Virus record (IMG/VR): IMGVR_UViG_3300037137_001277
Coordinates: 1-30,555 of that record
Strand: one strand, 5' to 3'
Origin: a virus
DNA length: 30,555 nucleotides
Shown here in pieces: positions 1,095-26,773 of the stretch. The notes below the pieces were generated by a model. The model did not search any database and was not told where the DNA came from. It worked only from the letters and a program-made list of their open reading frames with translations. Position 1 is the stretch's first letter. Every line of letters starts with the position of its first letter. Made by a program: the position numbers and the translations under genes.

Positions 1095-3587
1095 TCAGCG
1101 CCCCTTGATCTTCGTCCGGATCTCTGGCGGCGCCGGCAGCCAGACAATCCCCTCGGGTGTCGGCAACCCGACCATCAGCTCATCGGCTCCCGCGATAGGG
1201 ATCCGGGCGAGCCGCAAGGCGTCGGCCGGCACGACCACGATCCCCTCGGGCTTCGGCAACCGTACGAGCAGATCCCAGTAGGTGGGATACCAGTCCAGCT
1301 CATGTGCGTGTATGAGCAGGACTTGCGAGCGCGCCAGTTCCCTCGCGAGTAACGTCGCGGCGCCCGCCTGCTCGATCCTGAGTTGCTGGCTCAGCGCCTC
1401 GACGATGGCCTGGAGCTCGCTGGCCTGCTGCACGATCAACAGCACCTGATTGCGCCCGAGTTCCTCGTACAGAATCCCGCCGTTGATACCCTGAACGATC
1501 AGCAAGCCTTGGTTCAGTTCGAGTTCGGTGCGGAGGGCACGATCGGAGATGGCCTGCGAAACAAAGATGCTCTGCGGCCGACTCTCCATGAACGCGGCGA
1601 TATCCTGCTCTGCCTGCTGCATCAATAGCCACTGCGCGCGGATTTCGGATGCGAACAATGCGGCGGCCGCACCCTGCACGATCAGCAATGGCTGCTCGAG
1701 GCCGAGTTCCGCGCGGATCGCCGCATCGATCACCACCTGATCCAATAGCAGCAACTGCTCCTTACCAGTCTCATCGTAGGTATTGGCGGATATCGGGATA
1801 TAGACGTCGGTGGCCTCCTGCGCGATCAGGAGCAATTGAGATAAGATCAGGTCGCCGCGGATCACGGTTTGGCCATCGATGGTCTGCGCGATCAGGAGAG
1901 GCTGGCTGCGGTTGAGTTCGCCGCGAGTCGCGGCCTGCCCGCCGATGGCCTGCGCGACGAGTATGGCCTGCGCCTTGGCGGTCTCTTTCCGGGTCGCGGC
2001 GGCGCTGTTGGTCTGCGCCACCTTGATGCTCTGGGCCTTGCCGGTCTCGTCGTAGTTCGAGATCGTGTGGTAGGTGATGTTCAATTTGGCTGGATGGCTC
2101 GGCGAATCATCGAAAAACGCCATCGTTGCCTGCTCATCGTTGTTGATCGCAGAACTCGACATCAGCATGAATGCCATATCGTTGTTGGAAGCCCAGAGCG
2201 CCCTATCTACAATCTCCTGAACGACTGTCTTGACGTTCCAGCTTTTATAGGCGGCGCCCCCGCTTAGAGATACTTCCGGACTAGCGGCGGTCGTCCTAGT
2301 CCTATCGCCTGGGCTTCCGGTCGCTACATTGGTGGTATTGGCCCAAATGGCAGCATCATCATGGTCATCGCCGTGGACCTTTAGGCTCGGCGTACCAACA
2401 ACTGTGCCATCGTAGTAGATCTGCACTGTGGATGTATCAACTACAACGCCCTGGGCCACAGGTATGGTGAGGAACCTCATGCCCATACACTTGGCGCGGG
2501 TTATAGAACTTGGCGGAGCGGTGGTATTCCAACCAATCCCGAAGGTCAGTGCCACTGCAGAGTAGATTTTATCCGTGCCAGTACCGGGCCAGCTTCCGCC
2601 GCCGGAATAGGCATCATCGCCGCTAGCTGCAACCAACTCCTCAGTGATAGTCGTATCCATATAGACCGGGTAGGTCGCCACGTTCAGCGCCGTCGCCGTC
2701 ACCGAGAATGCCATGAAACATCGAGAGGCCTTGCGGAGCAACCGCCACTGCACCGGCAGGACTTTCGGGAAACCCGTCTCGGGATCCGGGCCTCCGCTAT
2801 CCCAGGCCACTGGCTTCTGGAACCACCAGAGATCTCGACTCTGCTCGTCGAGTTGAGAGAATGCCGCGGGATCAGTGGCCTGCTCATCCGGCGCACCGAG
2901 CGCGTCAGTGAGATCATCACTCAGATCGGCCGGAGTCACCGCATTGGCGAATGTCCCCGCCTTCGTGCCCGCATCCCAGCTGACCGCCATCAGCAGCACC
3001 AACCGCAGGCCACTCATACCGATCGTGGGCGTCGGCAGAGATGCATTCCCCTCGATGATGAGTTGTTTGAAGAACTTGTCGGGCTTGAGGGAATACTGGA
3101 AATCGAGGCCTGTGCCGAATGCGCCGTACCACGTCACGGTATTGGTCACATCATCGATGGTCGGCGCGCCGAGGGTTTTGGGTGTGCTGATCAGCTGCCA
3201 CTGGCGGGCGTTGTTCATCCAGCCCAGGGCGACCGGCGCCATGGCAAACCAGCGGCCCGCTCGCCGGAACTGTGCGATATAGCGCACCGTGCGCCCGGCG
3301 ATCTGGCGACTCTGCCAGAACCGTACCTGGTAGCCGTTGCTCTCGCAGGCCGCGTCCCATTGCTGGCCGGGAGTCGAACGGACGTCGAGGTCGATCTCCT
3401 CGAACGCCAGGCTTTCATCGAACGGATCGGCGCGGTAGTGGATCGGGGAGATGTCGCCGCCGACCCGGAAGGTCCGACCATCGAGCTGGAACTTCTTGAA
3501 GTGGCGCGTGCGATGGCCGGGCAGTTCCGTCTCGCCCGGCCCCGCGCGCAGGATGCCAGTCGGATCACGCTCGGCCAGTGTGGCCAT
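1095..3587 (-). CDS. Long tail fibre / receptor-binding structural protein with C-terminal repeats
   Basis: 830 residues. It starts at ATG 3587, one base after the stop of the preceding gene. Residues 1-300 form a beta-rich N-terminal region that probably attaches to the tail. Residues about 305-510 look like a separate domain (GDDHDDAAIWANTTN, AAYKSWNVKTVVQEIV, then FFDDSPSHPAKLNITY); this recalls DNRLRE-type wall-associated modules, a weak match by eye. Residues 511-765 hold about twelve degenerate repeats of 19-27 residues with a core like RxELxxxQxLLIVQ. The C-terminus has two short copies of LPxPEGIVxxPA (for example LPKPEGIVVVPA). No enzyme motif is seen. Being the last and largest distal gene, after the baseplate accessory genes, it fits a fibre. 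The stretch coding for residues 305-520 looks richer in A and T than its surroundings. Confidence 0.75.
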   Translation of the reverse strand: MATLAERDPTGILRAGPGETELPGHRTRHFKKFQLDGRTFRVGGDISPIHYRADPFDESLAFEEIDLDVRSTPGQQWDAACESNGYQVRFWQSRQIAGRTVRYIAQFRRAGRWFAMAPVALGWMNNARQWQLISTPKTLGAPTIDDVTNTVTWYGAFGTGLDFQYSLKPDKFFKQLIIEGNASLPTPTIGMSGLRLVLLMAVSWDAGTKAGTFANAVTPADLSDDLTDALGAPDEQATDPAAFSQLDEQSRDLWWFQKPVAWDSGGPDPETGFPKVLPVQWRLLRKASRCFMAFSVTATALNVATYPVYMDTTITEELVAASGDDAYSGGGSWPGTGTDKIYSAVALTFGIGWNTTAPPSSITRAKCMGMRFLTIPVAQGVVVDTSTVQIYYDGTVVGTPSLKVHGDDHDDAAIWANTTNVATGSPGDRTRTTAASPEVSLSGGAAYKSWNVKTVVQEIVDRALWASNNDMAFMLMSSSAINNDEQATMAFFDDSPSHPAKLNITYHTISNYDETGKAQSIKVAQTNSAAATRKETAKAQAILVAQAIGGQAATRGELNRSQPLLIAQTIDGQTVIRGDLILSQLLLIAQEATDVYIPISANTYDETGKEQLLLLDQVVIDAAIRAELGLEQPLLIVQGAAAALFASEIRAQWLLMQQAEQDIAAFMESRPQSIFVSQAISDRALRTELELNQGLLIVQGINGGILYEELGRNQVLLIVQQASELQAIVEALSQQLRIEQAGAATLLARELARSQVLLIHAHELDWYPTYWDLLVRLPKPEGIVVVPADALRLARIPIAGADELMVGLPTPEGIVWLPAPPEIRTKIKGR

Positions 3588-4772: not shown

Positions 4773-5372
4773 CTATCCTCCGTGGGCCGCAGCCCATGAT
4801 TTGATCGCCCTGTCCAGGGCGTGTGCCGTTCTATCGATCCAGGCGGGAGTCCGCATTGCGGCGGCGACATGCGGGTCGCTCACAAAGCCAAGCTCCACCA
4901 GCACTGCCGCCCTGGTCGCACATTTCCTCAGCACGCCCGGCAGCAGCTCATAGGTTGAGCCATCCGGCCGGCATCTCAGGATGGGCGCGCACTTCGCCAG
5001 CCCATGCGAGGCAAATCCGTCATGCCCCATCGAGACCGCCGCCATTGTCCCTGCCAGCGCCCTGCTCGCCGCCCACCTCGCCCGGTCCGGATCCTCCGTC
5101 CAGTAGTAGACATGGCACTCGTGGATGCAGTGCCCGGCCTTCCACTCGTAGCCGTTGCAGTGCAGACTCACCAGCACATCGGGCGGGTTCGCGTGGAGCG
5201 CACCGAGCAGGACGCCCAGGCCCTTCGCGCCCGCCGGCTGCCGCTTCGTCTCATAGCCCAGGGCGGCCATCACAGCCGCCACTTGCTGCACGACGTGCGC
5301 CTCGCTCAGGCCATCGGGCCCGGGCGCGCCCGGGTCGCTCACGCTGTGGCCGGGGTTCACGACGATTCTCAC
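4773..5372 (-). CDS. Endolysin: N-acetylmuramoyl-L-alanine amidase, Amidase_3 type
   Basis: 199 residues. It cuts the bond between N-acetylmuramic acid and L-alanine in peptidoglycan and should release progeny at the end of infection. It starts with GTG at 5372, overlapping the holin stop in a GTGA. The Amidase_3 signature is complete: VNPGHS with zinc ligand His9, Glu24 in LSEAHV, His71 in SLHCNGYEW, and the catalytic Glu160 in VLVELGFVSDP. The catalytic domain fills the whole protein; no separate cell-wall binding domain and no signal peptide are visible, so export depends on the holin. Several Cys residues (72, 82, 86, 128, 134, 151) are more than usual for this family. Confidence 0.92.
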   Translation of the reverse strand: MRIVVNPGHSVSDPGAPGPDGLSEAHVVQQVAAVMAALGYETKRQPAGAKGLGVLLGALHANPPDVLVSLHCNGYEWKAGHCIHECHVYYWTEDPDRARWAASRALAGTMAAVSMGHDGFASHGLAKCAPILRCRPDGSTYELLPGVLRKCATRAAVLVELGFVSDPHVAAAMRTPAWIDRTAHALDRAIKSWAAAHGG

Positions 5373-23102: not shown

Positions 23103-23187
23103 GGTCGCCTCCCGTTTTCGGCCCGTCGGCCTCTCGCGGGCAGTTCCGCTGACCGCTCCGTCTTATCAGAAAGCTCGATGTGTGAGC

Positions 23188-23346
23188 TCACTTCCGTTTC
23201 CTCTGGATCGCCCGGTTGCGAATCCGGGCCGATGCCTCGGCCGCCGTTTTGGTCGTGGATCGCCCCTTGATGTGGCCGGTCGACGCCTCCACGATCGCCC
23301 AGGGCTTCGATTTCACATTGCTCCGTTTCTGAACCGTCACTGGCAT
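23188..23346 (-). CDS. Small basic protein, 52 aa
   Basis: Read by hand; ATG at 23346 with AGGTGA upstream, directly behind the leader element at 23363-23438. The product begins MPVTVQKRSNVKSKPWAIVE and ends RNRAIQRKRK. The pattern of a KR-rich start, a PWAIVEASTGHIKGRSTTKT hairpin and a last helix AAEASARIRNRAI resembles a widespread group of tiny phage proteins with a consensus of the form VxKRxxKxxVVxxxTGxxxGxxxTKxKAxxxxRA, whose function is unknown. Strong positive charge suggests nucleic acid or capsid binding. It is followed by 85 bases without a gene before the scaffold. Confidence 0.75.
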   Translation of the reverse strand: MPVTVQKRSNVKSKPWAIVEASTGHIKGRSTTKTAAEASARIRNRAIQRKRK

Positions 23347-23362: not shown

Positions 23363-23438
23363 AAAAAGAGGCGGACATCTCACAGCCTTGCGGAACGCAA
23401 CGCTCCAAGATGCCCGCCTCGTCTACTCGACTCCGGCG
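23363..23438 (-). promoter_or_regulatory. Structured leader element, copy B (before the 52-aa gene)
   Basis: On the minus strand: a 24-base motif at 23438-23415 (core GGAGTCGAGTAGACGAGG, flanked by CGCC and CG), identical to copy A. Its end is the 5' arm of a long stem: GAGGCGG/CCGCCTC, then AGATG/CATCT, with an apical hairpin TTGCG-TTC-CGCAA. A U5 tract (23367-23363) and then an AGGTGA ribosome site follow. The motif can also fold on itself (CGCC with GGCG, GTC with GAC), which would compete with the terminator-like stem. An attenuator or RNA switch is a reasonable reading; a plain terminator is possible. Confidence 0.7.
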
Positions 23439-23444
23439 GCCTAT

Positions 23445-23644
23445 TCAGTTCTCGTAAGGGCTATACCACGTCAGCGCGCGGAAGTCAATAGGACGTTCGC
23501 CGGCCAACCACACGCGGACAGGATCCGGCGCCGTCTCGGCCTGAAACGGCGGGCACGCCGACCGCCCTGCGGCGCCCGGTAATACTGGCGTATGTCGTGC
23601 ATGGTCCTATCCAGGTCAGACAGGCGGCCTATCTTCCTCGCCAT
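23445..23644 (-). pseudogene. Small gene with a probable -1 frame break
   Basis: ATG at 23644 overlaps the minor capsid stop by one base (TGATG) and has AGGAGG upstream, so a gene starts here. In its own frame it reads MARKIGRLSDLDRTMHDIRQ, then turns into Arg-rich low-quality sequence and stops at 23471 after 57 residues. The frame one base back is open from codon 13 on and, from about 23545, reads AETAPDPVRVWLAGERPIDF followed by RALTWYSPYEN, with a stop at 23445 just before leader copy B. The two parts read like one protein of about 66 residues split by a -1 shift. No canonical slippery heptamer lies in the region where the shift must occur. An assembly error, a true pseudogene or unusual recoding are all possible. 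Confidence 0.55.
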
Positions 23645-24627
23645 CACGCGGCCCTCCTGATTCTCTTCGCCTCGGCTCGGGCGCGGCCAGCGAACTCCTG
23701 CCGGAATACATTCTGCAGCTGCCCGGGCGACTTGTACGAGTACCGCGCTTCGATGCCGCCGCGCTGCTGCTCCTGCTCGGTCGCCAGCGCCAGCACGAAG
23801 GGCGTCAGCACATGCGCACAGTTCGGATGGAAGGGCGGGCCGCCGTTGATCGCGGACAGAGGCGGGTAGCCCATGACCGGTTCCCCCGTCAGGCTGACGA
23901 TCACCCCCTCGTAGTAGATGCAGAAGTCGGCGGCCTTGTGGGCGCTGACCTGTGCGAGCTGGACGTTGTGCTCTTGCAGCCGGTTGACCGTTCCTTCGGT
24001 CATCGCCTGACGAGTCGTGGTGCGTGCCACCATCTCTGTGTATCGGTCAAGATCCCAGTCACGGCCGAGCCGATCGGTGAACTTCAGCTTGCCCTTCGCC
24101 AGCAATTCGCCCTTGAGATCCCGACTGACCTGGATGCGGGTTTTGCCCTCGGCGATCCCCTGGGCAACCGCACGCATGCCCAACGTTCGGAAGTCATCCT
24201 TGACTCGCCGACCGATCTGAGCGAGTGCGAAGTCGGTGACCCGCTGCATCTCTGTGACCACCGCCTGGACTGCCTCGCGATGTACCTGGGCGAACGCCGC
24301 TCTCTGGGGCATGCCAAGGTTCACGCCTGCCCGCCGCACTCCGTTCGCCCCCTGATCGCCGAATGCGACTCCCGCCTGATAGGCCTCCGGGATGTTGAAG
24401 GCGATCCAGACTGCCGACTCATCATGGAGCTCGGCGAGCACCGTTTCATACTGCCGCAACAGCGCCATCGCGCGTTGCCGGGATGCCAGCGAACTGCTGG
24501 CTCTCGACAGGATATCGAGCACATCGGCCGCGGCCTTGCGATAGACGGAGACCAGTGAGTCGATCTGCTGGCCCGTGAAGGCCCTGCGGAATTCCTCGAC
24601 CCGGCGCCTGCTGATGTAGCGGGCCAT
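23644..24627 (-). CDS. Minor capsid / head morphogenesis protein (Phage_min_cap2-like)
   Basis: 327 residues; ATG at 24627 overlaps the previous stop by one base. It begins MARYISRRRVEEFRRAFTGQ and has long helices to about residue 200. The signature part is residues 200-290: DRYTEMVARTTTRQAMTEGT, then LAQVSAHKAADFCIYYEGVI and a close PPFHPNCAHVLTPFVLAL. The pattern of an R-T/S-T helix followed by a strand, Cys, a YEG and a PPxHPNCxH motif is that of SPP1 gp7/Mu gpF-type minor head proteins. They join the portal on the inside of the procapsid and can be injected with the DNA. Order directly after portal supports it. No nuclease or ADP-ribosyl domain is fused. Confidence 0.83.
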   Translation of the reverse strand: MARYISRRRVEEFRRAFTGQQIDSLVSVYRKAAADVLDILSRASSSLASRQRAMALLRQYETVLAELHDESAVWIAFNIPEAYQAGVAFGDQGANGVRRAGVNLGMPQRAAFAQVHREAVQAVVTEMQRVTDFALAQIGRRVKDDFRTLGMRAVAQGIAEGKTRIQVSRDLKGELLAKGKLKFTDRLGRDWDLDRYTEMVARTTTRQAMTEGTVNRLQEHNVQLAQVSAHKAADFCIYYEGVIVSLTGEPVMGYPPLSAINGGPPFHPNCAHVLTPFVLALATEQEQQRGGIEARYSYKSPGQLQNVFRQEFAGRARAEAKRIRRAA

Positions 24628-24836
24628 CAGCGTCCCCTATGAAATAGCCGCGTCATCCAATCGAACAGTCGCTGCCACCAGGACTTCGGGCGCCGTGTCG
24701 CGGACGCGATGATGCTGGCTTCCGCTGCCGCCATTGCCCGCCATACCTCCTCATGCTTACGCCGGCCCAATCCGAGTTTGCGGCGGCGCCGCTTATTCAT
24801 CGCGCCGTACACGAGACTGTGGAAGATCCGACTCAC
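24627..24836 (-). CDS. Small basic protein, 69 aa
   Basis: Starts with GTG at 24836 in a GTGA overlap with the portal stop, behind GGGGAGGG. It begins MSRIFHSLVYGAMNKRRRRK and ends WQRLFDWMTRLFHRGR. Very basic at residues 14-28 and amphipathic, with Trp and Phe, at the end. No known motif. Another start at ATG within (MNKRRRRKLG) lacks a ribosome site. Its site between portal and minor head protein, with translational coupling on both sides, argues that it is a real gene and perhaps a head component that touches DNA. Confidence 0.6.
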   Translation of the reverse strand: MSRIFHSLVYGAMNKRRRRKLGLGRRKHEEVWRAMAAAEASIIASATRRPKSWWQRLFDWMTRLFHRGR

Positions 24837-26242
24837 TGCTGCCCGCCCTCCCCGACCTGCGTCTGCCGTGGCCCGCCGAACGTCACCGCCCGACTCTCGT
24901 CCTCGGCGATCCGCTCCATCTCGCCCTCGACCGCCGCGGGTCCATCGAGGCGCCGGATGCTGCTCTCAATGCTGGTGTTGCCGGATGCCAACCGCTGAGC
25001 TTCCAGTTGGACCATCTCCATCATGTCCTCGGGCAGCCCATCGGCCCACGCGATACTCACCGGGCAGGGCTCATAGCTGGCCCCACCGTGCTGCTTTTCG
25101 AGCAGTTGTGCCGCGTAGAGCACCTGCTTCAACGCCCCGTCGAAGTACAGTCGCTTGCGGTTGATCTTAGCAATCGTGCGGATGAGCCGCAAGCGCAAGG
25201 CCGTGCCGCTCTGCGCGACCCCATACTTGTCCAACCCGAAGATGCTCGGACCAGTCTCGCTCAAGATGAACAGCAACTCGATGAGCTGGTCGATTTCCTT
25301 GTAGGCGGCCTGGAGGCTAGCATCCCAGAGGATATACTGCGGGATCTGTTCGCCGGCCTCAAGCGGGATGAGGTCGAGTTTGTTCCGGTCGATCTTATCG
25401 TCCTCCCCCATCATGCTCGGCGGCACCGCCAACTTCGGGCTCACGTGCTTGTCCAGCACTGCATCGATGCTGCTGATGCGGCTGTTGAGCGCCTCGATCA
25501 GTGACTCCAGCCCGACGTAATCGCTGATGCCCCAGAAGCGGCTGCCATAACGGAAGTTCGGGATGTGAAATACCGGGATGAACATCAGGCCGGTTTCGAC
25601 CTCGGGCTCGAGGCCAGCATACTCGGGCAGCATTGTGATATCCACCTCCTCGACCTTGCCGCCCGCTTGGCGGAACAGCCGGTTGCGGATCAGGCCGGCC
25701 TCGTGCTCTTCGACCCGTACGTACTTGAGGTTCCGTTTGCTCGGGTCCGGGTCGGCCTTCTGCCAGGCCAGCGATACCCTGTTGACCTGGCGGATGTCGT
25801 CCTCGCTCAGCTCGGGGAAGTAAATGGAACCAGGCACCTCCTCGATCAGCGCCTCGGGCTCGGCCTCCGGGTCGACAGGATTGCGGATTCCCCATCGGAC
25901 CTTGAGCACCGCGTCGCCCCGGAAACTGGACGCAAGCGCCGCCTCATAGGAGAGCACCCGCAGCCCGTTCTGCCCGACCAGCCGTTCGACCGCGTCTGCC
26001 GCCCCGGTGTTCGCCTCGTCCGTCACCAGGTAATCGGGCGGCTCGCCGAACAGCATGTCGGCGCTCAGAGTCGACAGGATGCCGGCGAAGTTGGCGACGA
26101 TATAGCGGCTCATCTGGAAGGGCCCGCCGGTTTTCACCTTGAAGATGGTCTGGTGCTGCGCCAGAAACAGCCCCTCGAAACGCCCATAGTCTTTGATGCG
26201 CGGTTCATGTGCGGCCGGTGGGTATGTCGCCCAGTTGATCAT
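24833..26242 (-). CDS. Portal protein
   Basis: 469 residues from ATG 26242, with AGGAG directly upstream; an in-frame TTG at 26257 lies in the terminator-like hairpin and is rejected. It forms the dodecameric ring at one capsid vertex through which DNA is packed. It begins MINWATYPPAAHEPRIKDYG and carries the portal phrase MSRYIVANFAGILSTLSADM, GEPPDYLV, then a strand-rich wing (AVLKVRWGIRNPVDPEAEPE) and a helical stem-crown region with LIELLFILSETGPSIFGLDK and ALRLRLIRTIAKINRKRLYF, as in SPP1 gp6-type portals. The order terminase, portal, minor head protein, scaffold, capsid is conserved. The leader element copy A lies eight bases upstream of its ribosome site. Confidence 0.88.
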   Translation of the reverse strand: MINWATYPPAAHEPRIKDYGRFEGLFLAQHQTIFKVKTGGPFQMSRYIVANFAGILSTLSADMLFGEPPDYLVTDEANTGAADAVERLVGQNGLRVLSYEAALASSFRGDAVLKVRWGIRNPVDPEAEPEALIEEVPGSIYFPELSEDDIRQVNRVSLAWQKADPDPSKRNLKYVRVEEHEAGLIRNRLFRQAGGKVEEVDITMLPEYAGLEPEVETGLMFIPVFHIPNFRYGSRFWGISDYVGLESLIEALNSRISSIDAVLDKHVSPKLAVPPSMMGEDDKIDRNKLDLIPLEAGEQIPQYILWDASLQAAYKEIDQLIELLFILSETGPSIFGLDKYGVAQSGTALRLRLIRTIAKINRKRLYFDGALKQVLYAAQLLEKQHGGASYEPCPVSIAWADGLPEDMMEMVQLEAQRLASGNTSIESSIRRLDGPAAVEGEMERIAEDESRAVTFGGPRQTQVGEGGQQ

Positions 26243-26255
26243 GTTCTCCTCACGC

Positions 26256-26318
26256 AAAAAGGCGACCCCAGGTCCGCTGAGCGGATCATCAGGTCGCCTC
26301 GTCTACTCGACTCCGGCG
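26256..26318 (-). promoter_or_regulatory. Structured leader element, copy A (before portal)
   Basis: On the minus strand: the 24-base motif at 26318-26295 (identical to copy B; core GGAGTCGAGTAGACGAGG) is followed by a stem AGGCGACC/GGTCGCCT at 26299-26260, with an apical hairpin TCCGC-TCA-GCGGA, a U5 tract at 26260-26256 and the portal's AGGAG seven bases on. Outer and apical stems have base pairs at the same places as copy B but different bases, so structure is kept while sequence is not. The stem-U5 end has the form of an intrinsic terminator. No other copy was seen in the window. Confidence 0.72.
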
Positions 26319-26342
26319 TGTATTGGATTGTCCGAGCAAATG

Positions 26343-26603
26343 CTAGCCGACGTCTCCCGCGCCGTCAACACCGGCAGGTATGTGGCCGGTCAGCGGCGCC
26401 AGGGCATTGCCCAACTTGAAGTGAGCCTCGGTGCCATCTGTGAACACCATCCGCGGTATGCCGCGGATGAAGATGACGCGCAACCTGGCCTCGCCGAAGC
26501 CGTTCATTGCGGCGGAGACGCGGGCAAGCGCTTCGCGCAGGTCCCGCCAGTAAGGTCCGTCGTCCTCGCCTTTTCTCTCGCCCCCGCTGGCCACTGCTCT
26601 CAC
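26343..26603 (-). CDS. Hypothetical protein, 86 aa
   Basis: Starts with GTG at 26603, overlapping the zinc ribbon stop in GTGA; the frame is open for 43 codons more but that part lies inside the other gene. The product begins MRAVASGGERKGEDDGPYWR (first residue GTG), has a helix DLREALARVSAAMNGF, then ARLRVIFIRGIPRMVFTDGT and a flexible Gly/Ala tail. A small alpha-beta fold is likely. No family recognised. It is the last of three small genes between terminase and portal and is followed by leader copy A. Confidence 0.6.
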   Translation of the reverse strand: MRAVASGGERKGEDDGPYWRDLREALARVSAAMNGFGEARLRVIFIRGIPRMVFTDGTEAHFKLGNALAPLTGHIPAGVDGAGDVG

Positions 26604-26773
26604 CCGATCGATGCTGCCTGCTCCGGCTCCGAGTACATGACTTCCTTGCACTCGCACTCCGGGCATTCCGCCTTGCGGACGGCGACGCCCTTCTTGAACA
26701 CGCCATCGCCTGCATACCCGCAGTTTCCACATCTCACCTTGACTGTGTAGACATCCTTCCCTGATGCGCTCAT
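26600..26773 (-). CDS. Small zinc ribbon protein, 57 aa
   Basis: ATG at 26773 with AGGAG five bases upstream; the longer open frame is discounted. It begins MSASGKDVYTVKVRCGNCGY. Two CxxC knuckles, CGNC at about residues 15-18 and CPEC at 34-37, about 15 residues apart, form a zinc ribbon; a further Cys lies just after the second (CEC). Such ribbons bind nucleic acid or proteins. It overlaps the next gene and is eight bases from the membrane peptide upstream. Function unknown. Confidence 0.72.
   Translation of the reverse strand: MSASGKDVYTVKVRCGNCGYAGDGVFKKGVAVRKAECPECECKEVMYSEPEQAASIG

Follow-up and report, generated by a model that had tools for sequence, protein, structure and literature searches.

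Paired leader hairpins ahead of phage head genes suggest a protein-read RNA switch

The 30,555-nt stretch analyzed here (the window; positions 1 to 30,555 of IMG/VR virus record IMGVR_UViG_3300037137_001277) carries two leader elements ahead of phage head genes, one before the portal gene (P) and one on the scaffold side (S). A sequence-only reading of the window had pointed to a 24-base repeat on the minus strand, and this repeat is real: CGCCGGAGTCGAGTAGACGAGGCG occurs at 26318-26295 and 23438-23415, both copies identical. Its 18-base core has only two occurrences in the window (allowing up to three mismatches), compared with 0.03 expected in shuffled sequence. The terminator stems, apical five-pair hairpins with 3-nt loops, T5 tracts, and ribosome sites were as that reading described. 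Two further features were absent from it, namely a predicted promoter 21 nt upstream of each copy and a box resembling CAACYGAATA between promoter and repeat.

Both elements follow the same order, and all features given here lie on the minus strand. At P, a predicted sigma70-type promoter (TTGACG-17 nt-TAGCAT; 26340..26368, from sequence and promoter scoring) is followed by the box ACAATCCAATA (26321..26331, matching CAACYGAATA at 8 of 10 positions), a hairpin that we call H1 (CGCC GGA GTC GAGTA GAC GA GGCG; 26295..26318), which is a candidate antiterminator, and a predicted intrinsic terminator with a T5 tail (26256..26300), which uses the 3' outer arm of H1, GGCG, as its own basal 5' arm. 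The first gene past P encodes the portal protein (SPP1_portal, PF05133; 24833..26242, ATG at 26242). At S, the predicted promoter (TTGACT-17 nt-TATAGC; 23460..23488, from sequence) precedes the box GAACTGAATAG (23441..23451, 9 of 10 positions), an H1 of the same sequence as the P copy (23415..23438), and a predicted intrinsic terminator with a 15-bp lower stem and a T5 tail (23363..23420), again with GGCG in common with H1. The earlier placement of the copies ahead of head genes holds directly for the portal at P, whereas at S a small basic open reading frame (ORF) comes first (23184..23345, ATG at 23345, starting MPVTVQKRSN; noted by eye, with a homologue in contig L004), and the Pfam-recognized scaffolding protein (PF06810; 22341..23102) and major capsid protein (SU10_MCP, PF17236; 21320..22303) lie further downstream. 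A minor capsid gene and a terminase domain were also recognized in the window by Pfam.

The two folds available to each leader share sequence. The self-fold previously proposed for the repeat, CGCC with GGCG around GTC with GAC, is the minimum-energy fold of the isolated 24-mer (-9.9 kcal/mol). Computed on the full leader, folding is preferentially as the terminator, not H1, and the terminator 5' arm starts within the last bases of the 24-mer in both copies. A generic terminator scan picked up neither element because their stems have internal loops.

Relatives were collected by a viral scan with a portal alignment and then by a scan with a deeper alignment, yielding about 60 loci on contigs that are fragments. 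The cassette of promoter, box, H1, and terminator was present in at least 25 related IMG/VR contigs. Where portal identity was 52% or more, the element was nearly always present; at about 40% or less, it was absent. Long contigs normally had exactly two elements, at P and S. Contig L085 has a third copy of box, H1, and terminator (4774-4818), which is promoter-less and directly precedes the capsid gene. A structural scanner, built after the first family members had been seen, was run on about 1 Mb of antisense sequence and gave only two hits, both being G006's own elements in reverse.

Beyond this phage group, we found no counterpart. An exact 18-mer pattern recovered only a near-identical fragment from viral contigs, a 20-mer pattern had no match in genome contigs, and a degenerate pattern of box plus H1, run against the whole of IMG/VR, returned members of the same phage group only. 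The portal alignment found no relatives among genome contigs and did not identify a host. The element had been reported as belonging to no recognized RNA class, and indeed no Rfam covariance model scored above its gathering threshold, either in the window or across 12 related loci (138 kb of relatives); permissive Rfam scans of each element gave chance-level matches only, and no description of the element was found in the literature searched.

Judging from its substitutions, the H1 structure is under selection. Pairs were counted on a hand-made H1 alignment checked against the sequences, as an initial alignment placed gaps in the stem. Across 31 distinct H1s, inner pair 2 occurs as GC, AT, TA, and CG and inner pair 3 as TA, CG, GC, and AT, with both paired in 31 out of 31. 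Overall, 95.5% of H1 cells were paired, compared with 82% (maximum 87%) in shuffles. The portal tree shows seven changes in inner pair 2 at the P site and three in pair 3, all of them two-sided. Covarying homologues in related phages, whose absence would have refuted the sequence-only reading, are many and show compensatory changes. The covariation that it drew from the differing terminator arms of the window's two copies says little, as these are simply two terminators.

H1 and the terminator overlap in essentially all elements, the outer arm of the one serving as the base of the other. Forcing the H1 fold costs a computed 4.8±1.6 kcal/mol relative to the terminator fold (36 elements; computed terminator energies span about -16 to -54), a gap that fits a switch that is off by default, yet reachable by a binding protein. 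In the S elements of L037 and L045 (L037S and L045S), the shared G has become A and its C partners, one in H1 and one in the terminator, have become U, giving (U,A,U) for (C,G,C), so that the shared base pairs with both partners. A constant overlap of this kind argues for local action on the adjacent terminator.

Promoter scores reached at least 8.5 out of 12 in 35 of 37 family elements, compared with 4% of random positions at the same loci (scored as sigma70-type). The box matched at 9-10 of 10 positions in 25 of the 37, compared with less than 1% at random; it lies 10-18 nt 5' of the hairpin. The distance from promoter to H1 ranges from about 13 to 110 nt, and where the promoter is farther off (e.g., L005S, L037S, L045S), the box mostly remains beside H1 and so seems tied to the hairpin. 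The leaders of L005 (5838-5915), L037S, and L028S have additional GC-rich hairpins between promoter and box.

A strong promoter followed by a terminator is also predicted to yield a discrete short RNA, and the terminated leader (about 100 nt) might itself be a regulatory small RNA. This is the least probable of the readings that we considered, given that the element always stands ahead of head or late genes and is built as two exclusive folds; no target for such an RNA came to light, although none was looked for. Alternatively, H1 could be a DNA operator, an imperfect inverted repeat bound by a repressor, with ordinary terminators behind it. It is indeed an inverted repeat downstream of each promoter, and paired sites with a coevolving protein (see below) would suit a repressor as well. 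However, U-G pairs, an asymmetric internal loop, the variable distance to the promoter, the constant overlap with the terminator arm, and the promoter-less copy in L085 all favor RNA, and we regard an operator as very improbable.

The box occurs with both hairpin classes in the family, those with a pentaloop and those with an ANAA tetraloop, as would be expected of a host-factor site. Together with the resemblance of a conserved single-stranded box 5' of a type-specific hairpin to boxA-boxB, and with a hairpin specificity that varies between phages but matches within one phage, this points to the main rival of local attenuation: a nut-like processive antitermination in which box and H1 form a loading site, a phage protein and host factors modify polymerase past adjacent or later terminators, and the terminator overlap is secondary. 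Yet a loading site needs neither the near-constant overlap nor a shared base that covaries with both partners. Each late promoter also has its own copy, the third copy in L085 sits before the capsid gene with no promoter, and NusG, CAT, and ANTAR had no match above cut-off. We consider this reading unlikely.

The two hairpins of a genome tend to match. P and S loops were identical in 9 out of 15 genomes, and the summed P-S loop difference was 8, compared with 52 in permutations (minimum 26). In L026, L028, and L038, portals are 95-96% identical, but the hairpins are of three kinds, with P and S agreeing in each genome, and the bases flanking the S hairpin are alike. Matching within each genome, even among phages with such similar portals and different hairpins, implies a putative trans-acting reader of both. 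Copying between sites is not the whole explanation, because L026 (CCGG-AUAA-CCGG at P, CUCG-AUAA-CGAG at S) and L037 (CCAG-AAAA-CUGG at S, CCGG-AAAA-CCGG at P) keep a loop on different stems. These genomes also bear on whether the elements are no more than strong terminators preceded by a decorated hairpin, or leaky ones that only set head-protein ratios, with P and S matched by copying. In favor of this, the terminators are strong in silico and the window's two H1 copies are identical. Nevertheless, a terminator right behind its own promoter makes little sense unregulated, and flanks and terminator base stay constant while H1 changes, so we find plain terminators improbable.

Variation in H1 goes along with variation in a small protein gene. 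Wherever the contig of a pentaloop-type genome covers the interval from terminase to P, it holds there a gene of about 75 codons, class A. In the window, this gene encodes a hypervariable 83-aa protein with a GTG start (26343..26594), a candidate H1-binding factor. Both H1s differ between the window phage and L004, and class A is only 31% identical between them, compared with 90% for terminase, 80% for a zinc-ribbon ORF, 86% for portal, and 75% for minor capsid. S-hairpin distance tracked class A distance (r=0.55, p=0.001) in a sample of n=14-15 in which r varies with the distance measure; by an identity measure, with one uncertain genome removed, the values were r=0.29 and p=0.007. For L016, the S partner was taken from L007, a separate contig from another sample, and was dropped in one correlation run. 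S-hairpin distance was not correlated with terminase, portal, minor capsid, scaffold, or capsid (r<0.1, p>0.3). The predicted P promoter overlaps the class A gene at its 3' end, and the promoter sequence encoded there constrains the C-terminus of the protein (PPLTG...TE in relatives).

Genomes with ANAA tetraloops (L025, G009, G013, G020, G015) are without class A and have a class B small protein in the same place. The two classes are mutually exclusive, with no locus containing both, and each goes with its hairpin class. On the portal tree, the class changes at least twice (L026 versus L028/L038; L037 versus L045). In G009, across the 17 kb that precede P, class B was the only listed ORF common to G015 and not to G016, G019, or G008, in a comparison that set aside short ORFs overlapping longer genes. 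No RNA-binding regulator turned up among the conserved early genes that lie ahead of terminase (ParB-like, DNA methylases, integrase, SbcCD-like, RuvC-like). The class A or class B small protein is our best candidate for the factor. Class A was modeled as a helix and a two-stranded beta-hairpin (pLDDT about 92 in the core); for class B, the model reached only a low pLDDT of 50 and was set aside. The best match to DUF2292, from one of the class A proteins scanned, was 14.3 bits, below the Pfam cut-off of 22, and indicates a weak likeness only.

These associations also bear on how the elements were first proposed to control portal and scaffold-capsid expression, whether as an attenuator, as an RNA that senses a ligand or a protein, or as a put-like site. 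Phage HK022 has two promoter-proximal put RNA elements, which are active without a phage protein. Here, too, each genome has a pair of promoter-proximal copies whose hairpins are conserved, but loops that are fully different in close relatives, matched within a genome, and tracking a small protein gene are unexpected for a cis element that modifies host polymerase without a factor, which makes a put-like RNA highly doubtful. The sequences support the proposal in general and favor protein sensing over ligand-sensing or put-like action, since both hairpins of one genome change together and follow the small protein gene.

The reading that we favor starts from the anatomy, covariation, two matched copies per genome, and small-protein association visible in the sequences; from these we infer active promoters, terminators that stop polymerase and can be read through, a protein that binds H1, and which protein this is. 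Each element is probably, although far from certainly, a late-gene attenuator in which a phage protein that stabilizes H1 gives antitermination. A strong host-sigma70 promoter would start a leader that meets an intrinsic terminator at once, and head genes would be off by default because the leader runs straight into it. H1 would be transcribed before the terminator, whose base is formed by the same GGCG bases. A trans-acting factor holding H1 closed would deprive the terminator of its basal pairs beside the U-tract, and polymerase could then read through to the portal (P) or scaffold and capsid (S) genes. The factor would read both stem and loop of H1, as class A in pentaloop-type phages and the apparently unrelated class B in ANAA-tetraloop phages, and for this reason both hairpins of a genome would have to match. 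In lambdoid phages, N and nut specificities are exchanged together. More tentatively, with chances that we put at somewhat under even, late-gene specificity here may likewise be modular, with two unrelated and previously undescribed small-protein families each reading its own hairpin class at two late promoters, and with protein and hairpins exchanged together between near-identical phages, so that the late genes of relatives are not cross-activated.

Several observations weigh against a protein-read attenuator. In G006/L018, the P and S hairpins differ and P is without a box; the P element of G006 is divergent, with inserted genes. One inner pair is mismatched in L083, and the two loops differ by 2 nt in L084. 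In many genomes, part of the box at P falls on the stop codon of the small gene before it; S copies retain the box as well. Class A adjoins P, so its association with the P hairpin could be linkage, and its association with the S hairpin could follow from linkage at P plus P/S matching; the sample behind the correlation is small. Searches of PDB folds with the class A model gave chance matches only and no convincing RNA-binding relative.

The protein-dependent antitermination that we favor for these late promoters would work as in RAT/LicT systems, where protein binding to the antiterminator leaves a shorter terminator stem, detached from the U-tract (PMC3369936). Like H1, the antiterminator hairpin in leaders of the RAT/BglG-LicT-SacY type excludes an intrinsic terminator (here through the shared GGCG, with near-isoenergetic folds), but it is another hairpin, in sugar operons rather than ahead of phage head genes. 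Our element lies outside the RAT/CAT family: CAT_RBD (PF03123) was found in 0 of 11 records, some of these contigs being fragments and a host-encoded protein still possible. ANTAR proteins (AmiR/NasR) also stabilize a hairpin that overlaps a terminator, but they use two hairpins, compared with one conserved hairpin and a single-stranded box here, and none of the 11 records had an ANTAR-domain protein above cut-off (one sub-threshold match).

In the nut sites of lambda, boxA is followed by the boxB hairpin, which is bound by the arginine-rich N peptide. A layout of conserved box 5' of a phage-specific hairpin, common to two sites per genome, is present here as in N/nut (PMC3526286). By eye, however, the box here is not boxA-like, H1 overlaps the terminator, head genes would be the ones controlled, and the candidate protein is modeled as helix plus beta-hairpin. 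In the lambda Q system, the late promoter pR' is followed at once by the terminator tR', which is opened by a phage antiterminator. The same arrangement of late promoter and immediate terminator links our elements to lambda Q and to the Q-like AlpA (PMC7969949), but the conserved target here is an RNA hairpin. Phage_antitermQ was above cut-off in 0 of 11 records, with other Q families not searched. LoaP at dfn requires a leader hairpin ahead of the terminator for protein-dependent read-through (PMC12691694). The dfn hairpin carries a UNCG tetraloop, unlike the loops of H1, and LoaP is paralogous to NusG, which was found above cut-off in 0 of 11 records.

A predicted stop signal that overlaps H1 behind both head-gene promoters of these uncultivated phages, and an H1 that varies with a small protein, suggest a new protein-read RNA switch for virus-building genes. 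If true, both the structured RNA family and this route for timing virion genes would be new, in a phage group available only from metagenomes, and they would come with a protein-gated antiterminator without a known RNA-binding domain, possibly usable for orthogonal transcription switches. A specific candidate protein partner and dozens of natural matched hairpin pairs make RNA-protein specificity directly testable.

The neighborhood of P shows some further features. In L018/G006 (oriented positions 3219 and 11012), the P leader is 100 nt, and a large inserted gene separates the portal gene from the P element. A protein with ParB_N and a ParB_N-DNA methylase fusion are conserved directly ahead of terminase in G019, G013, G008, and G015. 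The zinc-ribbon ORF (CxxC...CxxC; 26600-26772, minus strand) lies between terminase and the class A gene in the window and is kept in L004, L016, L082, and G006.

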